A program made the translations under genes and the position numbers. Below are positions 1 to 28,401 of a stretch of DNA of 28,401 bases, in pieces. The stretch lies in the IMG/VR virus record IMGVR_UViG_3300023301_000067, positions 1 through 28,401 of that record; one strand, 5' to 3'. The notes under the pieces are model-generated. The model saw only the letters and a program-made list of their open reading frames with translations, did no database searches and was not told where the DNA came from. Source of the DNA: a virus. Every line of letters starts with the position of its first letter. The stretch's first letter is position 1.

Positions 1-263
1 GTTTTGTTGTAGCTTCTCGCGGTGTAGGTACTTGATTGAGAATTGAGATAAACAGCTTTCTGCTTATTATTGGTGGTGAAGTTACGTGATCCACCAATAC
101 TGCCTAACATGCCACCACCTAGATAATTTTGGTAAGCCGTCATTTTTGCGCCGTCAATTTTTAGATACGCGCTAGCGTCAATTTCAATGCCACCACCACG
201 ATAAGATACTTCACAACGTAGCGTGTTTTCTGTAATGTATTCAATAAGATTTATTTTTGACAT
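1..263 (-). CDS. Small phage protein of unknown function, 3' end cut by window edge
   Basis: An open frame runs leftward from an ATG at 263-261 to the window edge without a stop, giving at least 87 residues. The visible part is rich in Gly, Asn, Ser and Tyr, with a short motif YQNYLGGGMLGSIGG near residues 44-58. That motif looks like the core of a small phage/bacterial protein family, but I cannot name it. The start has no Shine-Dalgarno; it is preceded by the A/T run seen at most starts here. It lies 9 bp downstream of the 93-residue gene on the same strand, so the two are probably one transcript from the promoter near 650. No membrane segment or catalytic motif is seen. The frame is probably real because it is long, open and directly follows a gene. 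Its function is unknown. Confidence 0.65.
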   Translation of the reverse strand, partial: MSKINLIEYITENTLRCEVSYRGGGIEIDASAYLKIDGAKMTAYQNYLGGGMLGSIGGSRNFTTNNKQKAVYLNSQSSTYTARSYNK

Positions 264-272
264 ATATATGTA

Positions 273-554
273 TTAGTTGCTGATAAATGCAATGTTACTC
301 TCTACAATTTCCAACATGATCGCGTCCTGGTTCAATTGCTTGCGTAGGTCCCGGCATAATTTGGTGATCGTTGCGTCACTGCTATCGGTTACAATTTCAA
401 TTTTTAGAGTGTTTTCTCTAGCGCCTTTCCAATATCCTATGACTTGCTCGGTGGTAAATCCTTCAAAGTAGTTGCCGGTGATTTCAATAATTTTTTCAAC
501 TTCAAGTTCTTTTGTCTCGTTATTGTGGCCAACGTATAGAATTGCTTTTTTCAT
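273..554 (-). CDS. Small early protein, possibly DUF3574-like
   Basis: A 93-residue leftward ORF and the first gene after the leftward promoter. It has an alpha/beta look: a short N-terminal strand (residues 4-9), a mid-section with the motif FTTEQVIGYWKG (33-44), a strand ENTLKIEIV (47-55), then a helix with KLCRDLRKQLNQDAI (65-79) and a final strand. The pattern of GYW-G, an ..IEI.. strand, and a helix ending in LNQ-A resembles small DUF3574-like proteins, but this is recollection and not a search result. No catalytic site is visible. About 84 nt of leader lies between the predicted transcription start and the ATG. It is likely expressed early, under the palindrome described at 618-635. Confidence 0.7.
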   Translation of the reverse strand: MKKAILYVGHNNETKELEVEKIIEITGNYFEGFTTEQVIGYWKGARENTLKIEIVTDSSDATITKLCRDLRKQLNQDAIMLEIVESNIAFISN

Positions 555-617
555 AAATATAATTTTGGTAAGTCGCTAACTGGACTTATTAATAGTCTAT
601 CAGATGTCGCTGTCGCT

Positions 618-673
618 GTCTAGTAATTACTAGACGTTTTACTAGCTATAACACTCAATCTTTTACTTGTCAA
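618..673 (-). promoter_or_regulatory. Leftward promoter overlapped by a perfect 18-bp palindrome (likely operator)
   Basis: On the minus strand a consensus -35 TTGACA (673-668) is followed after exactly 17 nt by TATAGC (650-645), a good sigma70-type promoter with an expected start near 638. Immediately downstream, at about +3 to +20, lies the perfect palindrome GTCTAGTAATTACTAGAC (618-635). The half-site core TACTAG occurs again at 640-645, overlapping the -10. A short hexamer repeat TGTCGC follows (605-620). A palindrome at the transcription start is the usual place for a dimeric repressor to act. The promoter would drive the leftward genes at 554 and 263. No repressor gene is visible in the window. 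Confidence 0.7.
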
Positions 674-841
674 TTTTGTTATGATCTTACCTATATAGGT
701 ATTGAAACGGGGCATTTTTTAGGGTAAAAATGTAAAAAGTAAAATTCTATAAGGTAGGACTGTGGTAGGATTTTTTTTGGGGTGCTTTTGGGTGGGTGAG
801 GATGGTAAAAAGAAAAAATAAAAAAATAAAAAGATAAAAGC

Positions 842-867
842 CATAAGGTAGGAAAACATACCTTATG
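842..867. other. Short perfect hairpin in the control region
   Basis: CATAAGGTA (842-850) is exactly complementary to TACCTTATG (859-867) with an 8-nt loop. No T-run follows on either strand, so it is not a typical intrinsic terminator. The left arm shares the 11-mer ATAAGGTAGGA with a second site near 749, which suggests a repeated protein-binding word more than an RNA structure. Confidence 0.45.
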
Positions 868-932
868 AGTAGAATACCGTTATTCTAAGCCATATATTGA
901 CTTGACAAAGTGTTAAATGTGTTGGGGCACAA

Positions 933-968
933 GAGTCGTGTCCCGAGTCATGTCCCGAGTCATGTCCC
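933..968 (+). repeat. Three tandem 12-bp repeats (GAGTCRTGTCCC), iteron-like
   Basis: Three head-to-tail copies of GAGTCRTGTCCC occupy 933-944, 945-956 and 957-968; the first has G where the others have A. The TGTCCC core recurs in both orientations through 1175. Short, direct, helically spaced repeats in a gene-free region are typical of iterons or arrays of regulator sites. Confidence 0.7.
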
Positions 969-1005
969 GCTTTTTAGCCTTGTTTATAGCCATATTTTAG
1001 AGAGA

Positions 1006-1105
1006 GGGACACAAGGACACAAGAATCGGAAAAAAAGCGGAAACACTTTTTTCCTTTTTTTTTACGCGCAGCGCTTTTTTTGCCATTCTTGTGTCCTTGT
1101 GTCCC
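1006..1105. repeat. Long inverted repeat, 34-nt arms, 32-nt spacer
   Basis: Arm 1006-1039 pairs with 1072-1105. The outer 21 bp (1006-1026 with 1085-1105) are perfect, two mismatches follow, and pairing then resumes through an A7/T7 block and GCG/CGC. The outer arms contain the repeat core twice (GGGACAC and GGACAC). The structure could extrude as a cruciform or fold as RNA. It is not a classical terminator because no T-run follows the outer stem. Candidate roles are origin hairpin, packaging site, or a structured RNA. Confidence 0.8.
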
Positions 1106-1154
1106 GTGGTCATTCTACCCTTGCAGGTAGCCATATATTAAATTGCTATTGACG

Positions 1155-1174
1155 GGACACAAGAAGTAGTGTCC
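1155..1174. repeat. Short inverted repeat GGACAC/GTGTCC, operator-like
   Basis: GGACAC (1155-1160) and GTGTCC (1169-1174) are separated by 8 nt. A related pair sits at about 925-942 (GGCAC...GTGTCC). Both have a CACAAGA start to the spacer. These look like two sites for the same dimeric DNA-binding protein. A TTGACG at 1149-1154 directly abuts this one, but I find no matching -10. Confidence 0.5.
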
Positions 1175-1338
1175 TAGTACATTTATTTTGATATGTCAAT
1201 AGCCATGAGTTTTGTATTTTGTCAAAAAAGAAAAGCTCATTTTGTCTAGCGTTTTAGTTAGTGGGGATTTTATTTGGGAGGGGGTGAGTCCCTCCGAACA
1301 TACCCCGGTCGAGTTAGTTTAGAATCTCCCCCTACCCC

Positions 1339-1404
1339 CCAAGAAAAATAAATCAAAAGCCCAAGAAAAATAAATCAAAAGCCCAAGAAAAATAAATCAA
1401 AAGC
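1339..1404 (+). repeat. Three perfect 22-bp A-tract tandem repeats
   Basis: Copies at 1339-1360, 1361-1382 and 1383-1404 are identical, and a degenerate fourth copy follows. Each has an A5 and an A4 tract about 11 bp apart, so A-tracts recur close to once per helical turn across the array. This arrangement is known to bend DNA. The position, 120 bp before terS, suits a replication or packaging element or an UP-like promoter region. There are no spacers, so it is not a CRISPR array. Confidence 0.75.
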
Positions 1405-1490
1405 CCATCAAAAATAAAGAAAATACATCAAAACTATATAAATATAATTTTCAATTTTAAAAAAGTTTTAAAAAAAATTTCCCCAAAAAG

Positions 1491-1520
1491 TTTACTACTA
1501 CAAAAAAGGTGTGATATTAT
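1491..1520 (+). promoter_or_regulatory. Possible late promoter with extended -10, placed for a leaderless terS mRNA
   Basis: TGATATTAT (1512-1520) is an extended -10 (TGn plus TATTAT). TTTACT (1491-1496) lies 18 nt upstream as a weak -35. The ATG of terS begins at 1527, 6 nt after the -10, so transcription would start at or next to the start codon. This is the only promoter-like sequence I find directly before the late block. Confidence 0.4.
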
Positions 1521-1526
1521 TCTGAT

Positions 1527-2030
1527 ATGAAAAGACCATCAACAGGTTCAACTCCCAAACAGTATGCGTACGCTACAATGAGATTAACTGGTCAGGGAGG
1601 TTCTAAAAAAGAAATAGCTCGTAAGGCTGGGTTCTCTCATTCTGTGGCTAAGAACGCTAAGTACAAAATTGAGAATACTGAAGGCTACCAAAATGCGGTT
1701 ATTGTTCTCGCTCATGAAAGTAACAATCTATTACTAGCTATCCTCGCTGAGTTTAAAGCGCGTGGTGTAAAAAACTTTTCAGACAAAGATCTTATTGGTT
1801 CGCTTAAAGCTATGACAACCGCTTGGGATAAAATTGATAATAAAAGAGCCCCTGCTAAATTAAAAACTGATGAAGGGAATCCTTTGCGAGCAGTGTTTAC
1901 TAAACGAGTTGAAACTCAAACAGTTAGATTTGAAAAAGAGAAGCAGGATAAAATTTCCAAACAGGAAAAAGCTACCGCGCGTGAGGCCGAAGTCGTTGCG
2001 GTGGGTGAGGGGATTGATATGGATTTTTAA
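1527..2030 (+). CDS. terS: Terminase small subunit (probable)
   Basis: A 167-residue protein, first gene of the late block and 3 nt before the large terminase. Residues 23-48 (GSKKEIARKAGFSHSVAKNA and following) read as a helix-turn-helix of the type small terminases use to bind the packaging site. A central helical part (50-105) would form the oligomerisation core. A charged Lys/Glu-rich C-terminal stretch (130-156) ends in an acidic tip, as expected for contact with the large subunit. TerS recognises viral DNA, often within or just upstream of its own gene; the repeats at 1339-1404 are therefore candidate sites. The assignment rests on the helix-turn-helix, the size and the position; the sequence family itself is too variable to recognise by eye. 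Confidence 0.75.
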   Translation: MKRPSTGSTPKQYAYATMRLTGQGGSKKEIARKAGFSHSVAKNAKYKIENTEGYQNAVIVLAHESNNLLLAILAEFKARGVKNFSDKDLIGSLKAMTTAWDKIDNKRAPAKLKTDEGNPLRAVFTKRVETQTVRFEKEKQDKISKQEKATAREAEVVAVGEGIDMDF

Positions 2031-2033
2031 ACG

Positions 2034-3842
2034 ATGGCCAAATACAATATACAATTTCAGAAAGAACATAACGCCAGTATTGTTGCTCAGTTAATTGAGG
2101 ACCCTGATTTAATTGAAAACAAACGGTGGCGGATGAACAATTTATATTGGATCATTACTAAAGACGTGGAAAGTCCTAAGTCTCTGTTTCTTATGAATCG
2201 GGCGCAGCGGCACTTTTTTGAGAATTATTTAAATCCGGACGATCCGAGTAAGCGGTACTACCGGCATATTATTCTTAAGTCGAGGCAACTGGGGTTTACT
2301 ACGTTTTATGACTTATGGATTTTGGATGAGATTTTATTTAATACCAACCGTGAAGGTTTAGTTATTGCTCATACGCTGGGTGATGCGACTGAAATTTTTG
2401 ACCGTAAGATTGACTACGCGATTCGGAATATGAACGAAGAGGTTAAAGGAGCTTCTTTTAAATTGGTTCGAAACTCAGCGAAAAAGATTCAGGTGGTTAT
2501 TGATTATGGGCCGGAGGAAGGTTCCACCAGTTCAATTCAGGTATCAAACTCTGGCCGGTCGGGAACTTATTTCTACGTACACATCTCTGAGTTTGCGAAG
2601 CTTTGTTTGGCCTACCCAAAACGAGCATCGGAAGTTGAAACCGGAACATTTCCAGCGGTTCCGTTTGATGGATCTATTTTTATTGAATCGACAGCGGAAG
2701 GAATGGCCGGACGTTTTTACGAGATGTTCAACGAGGGGTGGCCGACGAGAGATACGATTACTCCGATGAAATCACGAGTCATGTTCAAGCCGCATTTTTA
2801 TAACTGGCAGTACGACGATACTGAAATGGCTAAAATTACGGAGATCATTCCAGTGGCTGAAATGGAAATGGGGGAGATTGATTTTGCTGAGTATCAGAAA
2901 GATCATAATTTGAGTGACGTTGAAATCACTTACTACTACATGAAGTGGCTACAGGCCGGAGGTAAAAACTCTACCGATGCGGTTAATAAGTTGCATCAAG
3001 AATTCCCTACCACCACGGAGGAAGCGTTTCTCTCAACCGGTCAGGCGTATTTTCCAACTGCTAAAGTGTTTGCGATGATGCAGAAAGTGGTCAATGGTAC
3101 GCGCGGGGAATTATCGAAAGACGAAAAAGGTGAAGTTAAATTTCAAGAGTTTTCTGCCGGGAATTTAGAGGTGATTGAAAAGCCGATAAAAGGTATGCGG
3201 TATGTGATCGGGGGTGACACGGCAGAAGGTCTCGCCCACGGAGACAGTCAGTGTTTATACGTATTAAAACATTCAACCGAAGAGTGTGTGGCCGTTTACA
3301 AATCCCAAGTGCCTCCGGATGAATTTATTACTGAGGCTTTCAATGTGGGCAAGTATTACAACTGGGCGCTGCTTGGAATTGAATCAAACAAAGACGGGCT
3401 GTGGGTAAACGATGGTCTTGATAAGCTGGGGTATGTCAATCTCTACTACCGGAAATCGTTTGACGATATCACTAAAAACATCACCAAGTTCTTTGGTTGG
3501 AAAACAACATCGGCTACGCGACCGTTCGCGCTCGCTGCGCTCAAAGCTATCTTCTTAAAGAAAGAAAACGGATTTCCGATGGCTATTCTAGTGGAAATGA
3601 TTACGTTCTTGCGAAATATGAAGGGGCGACCAGAAGCTCTGGCCGGTAAGAACGATGACGTGGTTATGTCCGCATCGATTGCGTATGCTATTTTGCAAGA
3701 AATTGGAACGTACGTTGTTCAATCCAGCGACAGCGAAGGATTTTCGTACGCTAAAGCCATCTTTGGCGAACCTCAAAATCAGGACCGATTAGTAAATCAT
3801 TCACAACACCAATCAGAAACCTCGGGAGTAAGAGAGTTATAA
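2034..3842 (+). CDS. terL: Terminase large subunit (packaging ATPase/nuclease)
   Basis: A 602-residue motor that pumps DNA into the prohead and cuts it. The ATPase domain shows a terminase-type Walker A KSRQLGFTT (82-90), a Walker B strand ending in catalytic Glu (YVHISEFAK, 181-189, E186), a coupling motif ESTAEG (218-223) and the typical HQEFPTTTEEAF (321-332) at the domain border. The RNase H-like nuclease domain has GGDTAEG with D395, GIES with E450, and KNDDVV with D541/D542 as metal ligands. All key residues are present and the length is normal. The start at 2034 is 3 nt past the terS stop, so translation is probably coupled. Identification is secure. Confidence 0.96.
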   Translation: MAKYNIQFQKEHNASIVAQLIEDPDLIENKRWRMNNLYWIITKDVESPKSLFLMNRAQRHFFENYLNPDDPSKRYYRHIILKSRQLGFTTFYDLWILDEILFNTNREGLVIAHTLGDATEIFDRKIDYAIRNMNEEVKGASFKLVRNSAKKIQVVIDYGPEEGSTSSIQVSNSGRSGTYFYVHISEFAKLCLAYPKRASEVETGTFPAVPFDGSIFIESTAEGMAGRFYEMFNEGWPTRDTITPMKSRVMFKPHFYNWQYDDTEMAKITEIIPVAEMEMGEIDFAEYQKDHNLSDVEITYYYMKWLQAGGKNSTDAVNKLHQEFPTTTEEAFLSTGQAYFPTAKVFAMMQKVVNGTRGELSKDEKGEVKFQEFSAGNLEVIEKPIKGMRYVIGGDTAEGLAHGDSQCLYVLKHSTEECVAVYKSQVPPDEFITEAFNVGKYYNWALLGIESNKDGLWVNDGLDKLGYVNLYYRKSFDDITKNITKFFGWKTTSATRPFALAALKAIFLKKENGFPMAILVEMITFLRNMKGRPEALAGKNDDVVMSASIAYAILQEIGTYVVQSSDSEGFSYAKAIFGEPQNQDRLVNHSQHQSETSGVREL

Positions 3843-3849
3843 TACCTTC

Positions 3850-4053
3850 ATGGGTCGCAGATACAAAAGCCTCCACCACAATCTCCAGCCGGGAGAGAAT
3901 GTTGTATTCCATCGCGAGCATCGATCACCTCGTAATCGCAGTCTAAATAAAATTAGAGTTCTTCGCGAACATAAAAAATCAGATCGTCGAAATTGGAAAA
4001 ACACTGTCAAAAATCAAAAATATTTGCTAAACCTTGAGAAAAAAAAGAAATAG
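3850..4053 (+). CDS. Small very basic protein of unknown function
   Basis: A 67-residue ORF starting with ATG 8 nt after the terL stop and filling most of the gap before the portal gene. It is strongly basic (Arg/Lys/His throughout, ending in a run of Lys) with no membrane segment or zinc motif. The position and tight spacing favour a real gene; the composition would suit nucleic-acid binding. Against it, the A-rich DNA at its end encodes Lys easily, and the protein belongs to no family I recognise. If it is not translated, about 270 nt here would be non-coding, which is unusual in this compact block. Confidence 0.45.
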   Translation: MGRRYKSLHHNLQPGENVVFHREHRSPRNRSLNKIRVLREHKKSDRRNWKNTVKNQKYLLNLEKKKK

Positions 4054-4079
4054 GTGGTATATTTATGAGAATAGCGAAC

Positions 4080-4107
4080 TTGTTTTAATTTTAAAAGACT
4101 TTATTAT
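4080..4107 (+). promoter_or_regulatory. Possible promoter just before the portal gene
   Basis: TTGTTT (4080-4085) and TATTAT (4102-4107) are separated by 16 nt, and the chosen portal ATG at 4115 begins 7 nt after the -10. The spacing matches the arrangement at terS. The flanking DNA is A/T-rich, so a chance match is quite possible. Confidence 0.3.
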
Positions 4108-4114
4108 TACCGAT

Positions 4115-6400
4115 ATGTATAAAAAAACCGATTCACCTGAAGAAGCCGAACTTTTGGGTGGAGAAAGTACTTCTAACACAACTAAGAAAAAAACTGTCTC
4201 TGATGAAGACAAAGCTTCTTATATTTTTGTTGAGGATAAGAAGAAACTGATGAAAGAATCTCAATACCGAAAGCGGTTTGACGAACTTTCAAAAGAAATT
4301 GAAGCTAACATTATCAACACCACCGTCTCCTACGGCAAAAAAGTGTACGAAGAGACCGGTTGGGGGTCAATGGTTTTTTATAATAAAATGTCCAACGGCG
4401 CGTACGATATCAATGTGTATCCGCAAAAGATAAACGGCCAAAACGACAACAAATCTGGCGTGCCAGTGTCTCAAGAACCAATTGCTCTATCTAAAATTCT
4501 TATTGCTACATCGGTCTTGGCTGGTAAAGTCCCAGATTGTGAGGTGGTTGGTGACGATAAAATTTACAACAAGGCAGCTCACGAACTATGGAAGCGGACT
4601 TGGACATTGAAAGGTGGAAATGGTCAGAATACTTTGGAGCGAACGTATCAAAATCTATTTACCTACGGATGGGCCGCTTGGCGGACTTACCCGAGACGAG
4701 TTTCAGTCAAGCGAAAAGGAATCGACAAGATTCTGTTTGACGATATCTATCGAGAACCAATGGATCCAGCCCGGACTTGGTTTGGAATTGGTCAAAATGT
4801 CGGTGATTACTGGTCTCAGTTTGAGGTGTACTACGAGAAAGATATTCTTAAAGCGGAACTGTTTAAATTGGTTCCAGAAACAGAGAGCTTTAAGTCACGA
4901 AAAAACTTTCTTGAAAAGTGCTCAACTTCTGACGAGTCAAAAGACGAAAATCAATTATTGTCTCAAAATTCATACACTATTGGTTACTACGAAAACGTAA
5001 TACTTAACCGGTACGTAGTAAAATGTGGAAAGTACATTATTTACGATGGGGAACTTCCAAATGACGATAGCCATGGATCGATTATGGTGGTTCGATGTTT
5101 TGTTAAAAATATTTTGGACCCGCATGGCGTTGGTTTGTACGAAATGATGCGCGGAAATACAGCCCTGTTTACCTATATCAACTCATTAAACGCGCAGCAG
5201 GTTGAAGCCGAAATTTTTCCACTACTGTTTGGCCCGCAAGTGCAAAATGGAACCAATACCTATCGACGGTCTCCAAATGTCATTAACCCGAAAAATCCCG
5301 GTAGTTCTATCGATGTAGTTAAGACTTCGGGGAACGTGCAGCAGGGTATTGCTTTTGGCCGAGACCAAAAAGTTGCTATCGAAGAAAATACGGGAGTCAA
5401 CAATATCGTTGCGGGACAAAATGCTGAGTCAACTCTTGGCTCAACCGTCATTATGAAAGAGGCAGCTCTGAACCGATTGACCCCTCCTAAAAACTCGATG
5501 ATGAACGCTCTGCAAACAGATGCTCACATTGCAATGTCTTGGATTGAACAGACGTACCCAGTGGACAAAGTATTTATGATTGACACAGACGAAAATGTAG
5601 CTGAGTTTGCCAAGCAAAATCCTGACTACTTTATTGAAAGCCAGAGCGTGACCGGAGACGACGATGAAACGATTGTTGGCCATGTGGTAACCGCTTCGAG
5701 AAACCTTCGAATGAACTTTGACTTTACTCCCGAGGGTGAACTACTTGAAGACGTACCAACTAGAACCATTTCAGCTCGAAATCTGTTTAATGAAATGCGT
5801 GAGCATGGTCATAAAAAAGCTTACATCGAATTTGTCATGGATCCGGATTCAATGCTTGTGCCTTCAATGGAAATCCAGAAGCAAAACTACATGGCTATTT
5901 CTCCATTAATTACAAATCAGATAAATTTAATTTTTGATATTCGTGGCCGAGATCCAGAAGCTGCGGCGGTACAGATGCGGGCGTTTGAGCGGATGTTGAA
6001 AATTCAAAAAGAAAATATTTTTGATTACATTCCAAAAGCTATTTACGATCAGATTATTGCGCTACAACCTTCTGAAATACCACCACCATCAACTGAAGAA
6101 CCAATTGATAAAACCAAACTTTACAAAGATGCTCCAGCTGATGTGCAGCGATCGATTGAAGAGGCAGCTGGATTGCAGCCGTCTGAAAGCGACATGATGG
6201 CTCCCCAAACTCCAGGTACAATTCCTCCACTAAAAAGAGAGAATCCTGAAGCTGGAGTCCCTGGACAATCAGATGATCCTAATCTTGGCCGGCCTTTAAG
6301 TCCTGGTAATATTCCTCGACCACAATCTCCAATGGGAGCAGCTAATGATGCTAGTATGGGTCGAGCAGCCGCTGGTCCTGGTGGATTTTTCCCCAATTAA
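4115..6400 (+). CDS. Portal protein
   Basis: A portal of about 761 residues, the dodecameric ring through which DNA enters and leaves, placed as usual after terL. Supporting features are the order terL-portal-scaffold-capsid, the length (700 or more residues is typical of podovirus portals), an N-terminal helical part with GWGSMVFYN, a central wing/stem region with VGLYEMMRGNTALFTYIN, and the segment GVNNIVAGQNAESTLGSTVIMKEAALNR typical of portal stems (given here in pieces: GVNNIVAGQ, then TVIMKEAALNR). The last 80 or so residues are Pro/Gly-rich and probably disordered. The frame extends upstream to a TTG at 4034, but that would overlap the previous ORF and add an odd Lys/Trp-rich leader; the ATG at 4115 has the usual A/T-rich context, so I chose it. 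Confidence 0.9.
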   Translation: MYKKTDSPEEAELLGGESTSNTTKKKTVSDEDKASYIFVEDKKKLMKESQYRKRFDELSKEIEANIINTTVSYGKKVYEETGWGSMVFYNKMSNGAYDINVYPQKINGQNDNKSGVPVSQEPIALSKILIATSVLAGKVPDCEVVGDDKIYNKAAHELWKRTWTLKGGNGQNTLERTYQNLFTYGWAAWRTYPRRVSVKRKGIDKILFDDIYREPMDPARTWFGIGQNVGDYWSQFEVYYEKDILKAELFKLVPETESFKSRKNFLEKCSTSDESKDENQLLSQNSYTIGYYENVILNRYVVKCGKYIIYDGELPNDDSHGSIMVVRCFVKNILDPHGVGLYEMMRGNTALFTYINSLNAQQVEAEIFPLLFGPQVQNGTNTYRRSPNVINPKNPGSSIDVVKTSGNVQQGIAFGRDQKVAIEENTGVNNIVAGQNAESTLGSTVIMKEAALNRLTPPKNSMMNALQTDAHIAMSWIEQTYPVDKVFMIDTDENVAEFAKQNPDYFIESQSVTGDDDETIVGHVVTASRNLRMNFDFTPEGELLEDVPTRTISARNLFNEMREHGHKKAYIEFVMDPDSMLVPSMEIQKQNYMAISPLITNQINLIFDIRGRDPEAAAVQMRAFERMLKIQKENIFDYIPKAIYDQIIALQPSEIPPPSTEEPIDKTKLYKDAPADVQRSIEEAAGLQPSESDMMAPQTPGTIPPLKRENPEAGVPGQSDDPNLGRPLSPGNIPRPQSPMGAANDASMGRAAAGPGGFFPN

Positions 6401-17075: not shown

Positions 17076-17714
17076 ATGCCAAAAGCTTCTCCCAAGAATA
17101 AAATTAATACGGGGAGGTTTAAAAAAGGATGTGTTGGTATCCGTAAAGGAGTCCCCGTATCTGAAGAGACTAGAGAAAAGATGAGGCAAGCAAAAATTGG
17201 TAAGAAAGTCACTTTCTCAGACTCTCACAAAAGAAACTTAAGCATTGCCTTAAAAGGAAAAGAGCGACCACACCTTCAGGGGAAAAAAAGAATTTTTACT
17301 GAGGACTGGAAAGAGAATATTAGACTGTCTAAAGTTGGTCAACCCAGCAAATCTAAAGGTAAAAGCTGGAAAATAAATCCGATCCATATACCAGCTATGA
17401 AAGAAAGAATGCTTGGCAGTAAAAACCCCTCGTACATTTTTGATAGAAGTAAGCTTGCTAAGAAACAGATTAGAAATGACGGAGCTTATTTTGAGTGGAG
17501 AAATTTAGTAAAAGCAAGAGACTGTGGAAAGTGTCGGATTGATAATAAGAACTGTGGTGGTAGAATAGAAGTGCATCATATTTTGAAATGGTCAGACTAC
17601 CCTAATTTAAGATATGAAGTTAATAACGGTATAACCCTGTGCAAGTTACACCATCCTCGAAAGAAAGTTGAAGAAATAAGAATGATTTCAACTTTTAGAG
17701 AGTTAATTTTTTAA
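17076..17714 (+). CDS. Freestanding HNH homing endonuclease with NUMOD3-like motifs
   Basis: A 212-residue endonuclease. The N-terminal half carries repeated NUMOD3-type DNA-binding motifs: VSEETREKMRQAKIGKK (28-44), FSDSHKRNLSIALKGKE (47-63) and TEDWKENIRLSKVGQPS (75-91). The C-terminal HNH domain has the CGKC knuckle (150-153), the VHHIL catalytic His pair (166-170, H167/H168), NNG (183-185) and C189 with H192/H193, all expected for metal binding and cleavage. Such genes are mobile within phage genomes and cut relatives lacking them near their own site. This one lies between lysis and tail genes and interrupts the otherwise structural block. The next gene starts with TTG 5 nt after its stop. 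Confidence 0.9.
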   Translation: MPKASPKNKINTGRFKKGCVGIRKGVPVSEETREKMRQAKIGKKVTFSDSHKRNLSIALKGKERPHLQGKKRIFTEDWKENIRLSKVGQPSKSKGKSWKINPIHIPAMKERMLGSKNPSYIFDRSKLAKKQIRNDGAYFEWRNLVKARDCGKCRIDNKNCGGRIEVHHILKWSDYPNLRYEVNNGITLCKLHHPRKKVEEIRMISTFRELIF

Positions 17715-27707: not shown

Positions 27708-28401
27708 TTACAGTTCTTTTAAGAAGTCTTGGTAAGCATCACTGATTTGCCACGCTACTTTGATAATCGTTGTCTCCATCCGTTCGATTTCTCGTTCATC
27801 GAACTCTCGGTGGAAGGAGATAATCCGACCGGTCACGTCAAGAATTTTAGCACCTTCTCTCCAAAAGTCTTGACTTTCGGACTGGGTTTCTCTTGTCTCA
27901 ATCCAGTCGAGATCACAGTATTCCGGCATTGGTTTGCCGGTAGCCATGAGCATTACGGCGTAAAACAAGAGCTGGTCGTGCTTGAACACTTTGGCTTTGG
28001 TCCAAGGAGCCTTACCGGTCTTGTACTCACGAATTACATTCAGTTCAGGATTGTAGATGTCCAAGAGTGAAAAGCAGGGGACGATTCCACCAACCTTACA
28101 TACTGGAGTAGGGTCTCCAGCCCGCATTGAGTTTCCAATTTGAAACTCAGATATACCGTTAATATCCAGCTCCATAAGAACTTCGCGCATCCCCTCACTC
28201 ATCGGGTAGTCCCGAGATAGCTCCTGAATCGCTGTTGCCCTGTTCGGAATACTCTTCATAATTTCCCCCAGATCTTCCACCATACTAGCAAACGCACTTC
28301 CAAATCGGAGGTACTTGGTATCGAGTTTCTCGGTACTTTCAAAATACTCTTTTCGATATCGGTCCGGACTCTTTGAAAGTACCGAGAAACTCGATACCAA
28401 G
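27708..28401 (-). CDS. PD-(D/E)XK nuclease (Cas4/RecB-like), 5' end at the window edge
   Basis: At least 230 residues, reading leftward from the window edge; the TTG at 28400 is probably internal, as the frame may continue outside. An S-S-F-x-x-L-x-x-x-P-x-x-Y start and FGSAF (33-37) resemble RecB-family nuclease N-termini. Catalytic motifs are present: D114 in LLDIY, E125 and K127 in EYK, and Q143...Y147 in QLLFYA. The usual His after FGSA is replaced by Phe or Ala (FGSAFASMVED). No Cys cluster is seen in the visible part, so an iron-sulfur site is doubtful. Phages use such enzymes in recombination and end processing. The first 30 codons contain both arms of an inverted repeat. Confidence 0.8.
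   Translation of the reverse strand, partial: LVSSFSVLSKSPDRYRKEYFESTEKLDTKYLRFGSAFASMVEDLGEIMKSIPNRATAIQELSRDYPMSEGMREVLMELDINGISEFQIGNSMRAGDPTPVCKVGGIVPCFSLLDIYNPELNVIREYKTGKAPWTKAKVFKHDQLLFYAVMLMATGKPMPEYCDLDWIETRETQSESQDFWREGAKILDVTGRIISFHREFDEREIERMETTIIKVAWQISDAYQDFLKEL
28314..28401. repeat. 30-bp perfect inverted repeat ending exactly at the window edge
   Basis: 28314-28343 is exactly complementary to 28372-28401, with a 28-nt spacer. The second arm ends on the last base of the window, so the arm may be longer. Both arms lie inside the nuclease reading frame and the translation is sensible on both sides. Confidence 0.95.

Follow-up and report, generated by a model that had tools for sequence, protein, structure and literature searches.

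The window analyzed here, the whole 28,401-base stretch of the single virus record IMGVR_UViG_3300023301_000067, is part of the genome of an uncultivated tailed phage. A leftward gene for a small protein, predicted to be the first of the early genes, is preceded by two putative promoters in tandem, P1 and P2, by a perfect palindrome that lies between them and overlaps the −35 box of P2, and by an RNA hairpin downstream of P2 (Table 1).

Table 1. Features of the early leftward region, with positions in the window.
Feature	Position	Strand	Basis
P1 −35 box, TTGACA	668..673	−	Sequence; TTGACA upstream of P2 in relatives
P1 −10 box, TATAGC, with TGT before it (extended −10)	645..650	−	Sequence; start expected near 638
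Perfect 18-bp palindrome, GTCTAGTAATTACTAGAC	618..635		Seen in none of the relatives examined
P2 −35 box, TAGACA	617..622	−	Promoter scan; TTGACA in most relatives, TAGACA also in L034
P2 spacer, 17 nt, GCGACAGCGACATCTGA, GACA every six bases, ending in TGA (extended −10)	600..616	−	Relatives
P2 −10 box, TAGACT	594..599	−	Promoter scan and relatives; start expected near 587
RNA hairpin, TAAGTC-CAGTTAGC-GACTTA	569..588	−	Fold z; position kept in relatives
First early gene, 93 aa, SAM-lyase-like	273..554	−	Pfam PF23780, PHROG 2226, PDB fold matches

The early genes

The product of the first gene matches the S-AdoMet_lyase family of Pfam with an E value of 4.7e-5 and a score of 23.8 bits, below the 28-bit cut-off, and the PHROG family with an E value of 3.3e-4. 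Its structural model (mean pLDDT 88.5) has a ferredoxin-like, PII-type fold; the best PDB fold matches are phage SAM lyase entries (6zm9, E 2.2e-5; 6znb, E 3.8e-5), followed closely by PII-like proteins. Searching PDB sequences with a profile gave weak matches, the best three of which are named SAM-AMP or SAM lyase (E about 0.1). Relatives of the protein are encoded in six IMG/VR loci, and G40, E47, E53 and Q76 are invariant in seven relatives. The conserved residues given for the SAM lyase Svi3-3 in PMC7877911 are G56, E69 and Q104, and Y58 of that enzyme would correspond to W42 here, a comparison made without superposing the sites. On profile and model evidence, the first gene probably encodes a SAM lyase, and its predicted product is a probable anti-restriction protein.

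Among the families listed for the relatives' early genes are a D5/DUF5906 primase-helicase, helicases, and a resolvase family for Holliday junctions, and the window's ORF at 27708–28400 matches a PD-(D/E)XK nuclease. An HNH/NUMOD3 homing-endonuclease-like ORF lies at 17076–17714 in the window, between the holin gene (16438) and the next gene. One of the 64 early proteins of relatives G002 and G003 matches the Acb2/Tad1 hairpin domain (E 1.3e-10) and is a possible anti-defence protein.

The phage group and the sites compared

Nothing closely related to the phage group turned up in the 50,697 phage records searched: the best match of the window's large terminase (TerL) has about 34% identity, the major capsid protein has no match there, and the DNA of positions 1–1500 gave no similarity match in phage records. 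Rfam and tRNA scans of the window also returned nothing. Close loci were found by scanning IMG/VR with terminase proteins, and a TerL profile scan gave 105 relatives, 80 of which were kept; the IMG/VR search may omit records very near the window, and still closer relatives could differ. The promoter region is closely common to the window and three records (L003, L005 and L006) in the alignment, and in the TerL tree the window, L003 and L006 form one fully supported group. L003 and L007 are the same contig, as are L005, L011 and L027. From relatives of 42–46 kb, about one-third of the phage genome seems to be absent from the window. A TerL scan of GTDB genomes recovered a single contig of 5.7 kb, which belongs to a Dehalococcoidia MAG; the GACA motif described below is not enriched in that MAG (1 match with 1 mismatch, against 2 for the reversed control), and we therefore reject this candidate and assign no host.

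Two sets of promoter sites were compared. The sites behind the 27- and 28-site counts were chosen by eye from a ranked list, with the second-ranked site used in L054 and L068, and L003/L007 brought in from the close-relative alignment. The near-duplicates L027, L057 and L071 were removed before the 27-site counts, and L106, from the motif scan, was added to make the 28-site set; L041, L046, L049, L065, L066, L073–L075 and loci with short upstream sequence are outside it. The automatic test took the single best-scoring leftward promoter in each of 47 loci, of which 6 were too short and 35 were distinct, and used the best promoter on the other strand of the same 35 loci as its control; these loci are not independent, some being near relatives of each other (L057 and L071, for example). 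Both the ranking and the automatic test excluded those of the 80 loci with TerL identity below 60% or little sequence upstream of TerL. The automatic choice gave results weaker than the hand-chosen counts, yet clear.

Predicted tandem promoters

The first-pass annotation had identified TTGACA-17-TATAGC on the minus strand, and this sequence is present from 673 to 645 with its 17-nt spacer; the half-site said to recur on the −10 box is there as well, CTAGTAA starting again at the last base of the P1 −10. Relatives bear out the reading as an early leftward promoter. P1 is kept in the close clade in a shifted form (TTGACA, 16 nt, TATATC in the alignment of L003, L005 and L006), and its −10 box reads TATATC in L003 and L006, TATAGC in L048, and TATAAC in L064. 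TTGACA lies 41–57 bp upstream of the P2 −35 box in 12 of the 28 hand-chosen sites, the window included, with 0.28 expected from shuffling, and 21–60 bp upstream of the best promoter in 14 of 35 automatic loci vs. 1 of 35 on the control strand. The ranking of P1 as the strongest promoter in the window did not hold up: a promoter scan of positions 1–5000 listed TAGACA-17-TAGACT at 622–594 and did not list P1, because the P1 −10 lacks the final T. Judged by the relatives, P1 is the first of two promoters in tandem.

The listed sequence is P2, about 50 bp downstream of P1 on the same strand. The TTGACA conserved in the alignment of L003, L005 and L006 is the P2 −35 box, and P2 of L006 reads TTGACA-CTGACACCCCTTTCTGA-TAACCT. 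Across the group, P2 lies upstream of early genes in the ranked sites and relatives, and its −35 box continues into six-base GACAnC repeats in the spacer. The strict pattern TTGACANCGACANCGACANNNTATA occurs in only seven IMG/VR contigs, all with the group's TerL: four belong to the TerL-profile set, and in the other three the group's TerL is present at 72% identity. Larger relatives have further copies of P2 in their early regions, some with TTATNCACA just upstream (at three places in G009 and, in addition to the main one, at one in G002). P2 of the window is off consensus in both boxes, and P2 is not recognized in every locus (L041, L049, L066 and L073, for example, score low in the automatic choice). 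In the sequences compared, P2 nonetheless proved to be better and more widely conserved than P1.

Both promoters have −35 and −10 hexamers 16–18 nt apart that are conserved in relatives, as expected for the sigma-70 type; both −10 boxes match poorly, yet each has TG upstream. Use of P1 and P2, with starts at the predicted bases, is what we infer from these features. As a separate observation, the repeat unit of the −35 box and spacer varies in step within each phage (GACATC in L035, GACACC in L038, GACAGC in L037, GACAGT in L033), as if the copies were homogenized or read by one protein.

A hairpin at the predicted 5′ end of the P2 RNA

The hairpin starts at the predicted first base of the P2 RNA, and positions 555–588 fold with a z of −4.3. 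Of 27 hand-chosen sites, 21 have a hairpin in the matching position, its first paired base 4–10 nt past the −10 box; the six misses are L039, L045, L048, L053, L054 and L068. In the automatic test, 22 of 35 loci had a start-site hairpin with z below −1, vs. 4 of 35 on the control strand. Comparison of L031 with L034 reveals a compensating pair in the stem (AGTCAG..CTGACT vs. AGCCAG..CTGGCT). An IMG/VR search with the window's own hairpin sequence recovered only L007. A hairpin at the 5′ end of an RNA can slow mRNA decay, and this one probably does the same for the P2 RNA; in the literature searched, we found no papers on 5′ hairpins and mRNA stability.

The slot upstream of P2

In many relatives, P2 is closely preceded by the exact DnaA-box sequence TTATNCACA, 10–28 bp upstream of the −35 box. 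Eleven of 27 hand-chosen sites have it no more than 60 bp upstream, always in one orientation (shuffle mean 0.26, maximum 3), and with the addition of L106 the count is 12 of 28. Among the 35 automatic loci, eight have it in the same orientation and none in the opposite one, compared with 1 and 2 in the control and a shuffle mean of 0.12. The box is spread over the major clades of the TerL tree. L003 has CTATCCACA at the slot, in reverse, and in the window TTATNCACA is absent from 555–1526 even with one mismatch allowed. The name DnaA box is given here on sequence alone; DnaA may bind the site in the relatives, and the slot just upstream of P2 seems, from this recurrence, to be regulatory in the group.

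In the window, the slot holds the palindrome. Its earlier description as a perfect 18-bp palindrome at the P1 start site agrees with what we find, with 618–635 falling at about +4 to +21 if the RNA starts near 638. Of all perfect palindromes in the window it is the longest, and within three mismatches it has no second copy there. Perfect palindromes of at least 18 bp arose by chance in 25 of 10,000 dinucleotide shuffles of 555–760, in 25 of 2,000 shuffles of the intergenic stretch 555–1526, and in 11 of 100 shuffles of the whole window; the palindrome is notable locally and is not striking as a pick out of 28 kb. Five of the six bases of the P2 −35 box are its right arm.

The first-pass annotation proposed an operator here, with conservation in close relatives as the check. 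L003, L005 and L006 keep the flanks and lack the palindrome, the outcome named beforehand as counting against the proposal: the position reads GCATAGTAAATGATTGACA in L005 and L006 and GGATAGTAAATGATTGACA in L003, and no perfect palindrome longer than 6 bp occurs in the slot of L003 and L006, so that the site was neither kept nor swapped for another palindrome. It is absent from every other relative examined; L034 carries ACTACTAGACAGCGACAGCGG, the right arm with the −35 box, without the left arm. On these comparisons, the palindrome appears to be a private feature of this phage. The exact 18-mer occurs in one other IMG/VR contig only (L002, 146 kb, read over 501 bases), which we take for a chance match and not for conservation. 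Over 27 sites, the slot is not enriched in palindromes (median p 0.80); p is below 0.05 in four, with about 1.4 expected, namely the window, L069 (14 bp), L078 (12 bp) and L052 (a 16-bp AT repeat), so that some of these may be genuine sites.

The families listed for 116 proteins (107 encoded in the early regions of G002, G003, G008 and G009, 4 in the window and 5 in L003) contain neither a CI-like repressor nor an integrase; for the four relatives, three of the lists give the first 25 families and the other gives all 14. The sole transcription-regulator family among the early-gene families listed is one ROS/MUCR match. No cognate repressor gene was found among 12 ORFs scanned in the window, which seems to lack about one-third of the genome.

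Other repeats were observed in these regions. The motif C(A/C)TACCTTATAG lies at 740–757 of the window on the minus strand; 14 of 28 loci have it upstream of P2, on the leftward strand. In L003 it gives a perfect palindrome of 26 bp, TATAAGGTAGGAATTCCTACCTTATA, and in the window an imperfect hairpin at 841–868. AT-rich, iteron-like direct repeats of 22 bp (CCCAAGAAAAATAAATCAAAAG) occupy 1338–1423, just before the small terminase gene, and a long inverted repeat around GGGACACAAGGACACAAG, with 34-nt arms that are 94% complementary, occupies 1006–1105. In L003, two consecutive early genes are each followed by an intergenic element, at 3220–3290 and 3624–3690, the two being almost identical and containing the inverted repeat GTGGTACTAATAAATTAGTACCAC, and L006 has a different palindrome, CGGTATCAAAATTTTGATACCG, after its first gene; the L003 element is not found between the window's first two genes.

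Interpretation

We consider it probable, from the comparison with relatives, that the locus is a real tandem early promoter module in which the palindrome is lineage-specific and not an operator. Sigma-70-type P1 and P2 would drive early leftward transcription in tandem, P1 starting near 638 and P2 about 50 bp further on. The P2 RNA would open with its hairpin, continue into the SAM-lyase-like first gene, and then into the early operon. Where many members of the group have the exact DnaA-box sequence, the window's slot would hold only a by-product, peculiar to this lineage, of drift in the sequence near the P2 −35 box. The original proposal of a promoter with an operator thus stands in its leftward promoter, which was real yet incomplete because P2 had been missed, and lacks support for its operator, a palindrome that overlaps the P2 −35 box and is not kept in relatives.

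The palindrome might still be a true operator that has replaced the DnaA box, at which a dimeric regulator from phage or host would cover the P2 −35 box, block RNA polymerase coming from P1, and so lower early transcription. Such sites can change fast between relatives, and their non-conservation need not count against an operator; the perfect dyad is rightly placed between two promoters, with the symmetry over a promoter that an operator should have, it is locally rare, and dyad-symmetric sequences also occupy the slots of L069 and L078. But the site is a single copy in the window and missing from the closest relatives, its right arm is accounted for by the P2 −35 box, the slot has no general enrichment in palindromes, and the early-gene families listed for four relatives include one ROS/MUCR match and no repressor or integrase. 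We regard an operator as unlikely on balance, if the most serious of the alternatives. A role for the palindrome in RNA, as a 5′-terminal hairpin of the P1 transcript like that of the P2 RNA, appears more doubtful still. The 7-bp stem and 4-nt loop would sit close to the P1 start, 600–638 folds at −10 kcal/mol (z −2.2), and the group favours hairpins at 5′ ends; however, no hairpin was seen, by reading, in the P1 leader of relatives with P1 (L003, L006, L048, L064 and L068, for example), and the palindrome of L069 would there begin before +1. As for an intrinsic terminator of rightward RNA, formed by the palindrome and the TTTT beside it, a terminator scan does list 617–636 on the plus strand, but with just three GC pairs and four T, with terminator-like matches no commoner than in shuffles (3 found, 4.6 expected), and with the genes to its left running leftward, so that nothing obvious is transcribed into it, we reject this reading. 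Most of the weight that remains after the operator and the P1 hairpin have had their small shares goes to the by-product of drift.

A broader scenario, which we offer as speculation and hold somewhat less probable than even the operator, is that the group couples early transcription to host DnaA through the box, the GACAnC promoter, and the protective hairpin, and that the window's lineage lost this control and a palindrome-binding regulator took the slot. If so, infection would be read against the host's replication state; and if DnaA acts in the relatives, the arrangement would let a phage sense host replication by simple means. The palindrome, then, sits in a well-conserved early-promoter module, and the operator as first proposed has no backing from relatives. 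From the module itself, early RNA starts can be predicted for dozens of metagenomic genomes, and the first gene expressed would be that of a SAM lyase, which is the strategy of phage T3.

Comparison with known systems

The tandem module is a variation on known promoter designs. Early operators of the lambda type are dyad sites over an early promoter and are bound by a repressor. The window's palindrome resembles them as a dyad-symmetric site overlapping an early promoter, and differs in being single and not conserved, with no repressor gene found among the proteins scanned.

The position of the SAM-lyase-like gene, first among the early genes, recalls the early anti-restriction enzymes of phages, the gene 0.3 SAMase of T3 and Svi3-3; in T3 infection, the SAMase is made before any other phage protein (PMC8406200). 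The ferredoxin-like fold, with SAM lyase as the best PDB match, is also that of a phage SAM lyase. Unlike those enzymes, the window's protein has only 93 residues and a Pfam score below the cut-off, and is a predicted lyase.

A phage parallel to the box is found at lambda pR/pO, where DnaA sites lie close to promoters linked with replication (PMC3985674). The lambda sites lie downstream of pO in that account, whereas the box in this group lies upstream of the −35 box in unrelated phage sequence. By title and abstract, and in a literature search that covered few subscription journals, we found no report of DnaA boxes at phage early promoters. The nearest arrangement is that of the E. coli dnaA region, whose order is dnaAp1, TTATCCACA, dnaAp2 (PMC8203912). 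The phage module drives early genes and not dnaA, adds GACAnC repeats and a 5′ hairpin to a box that is predicted, and in the window has a palindrome instead of the box; in L058, L064 and L068, a promoter, a TTATCCACA-type box and a second promoter follow one another in the same order as in E. coli.
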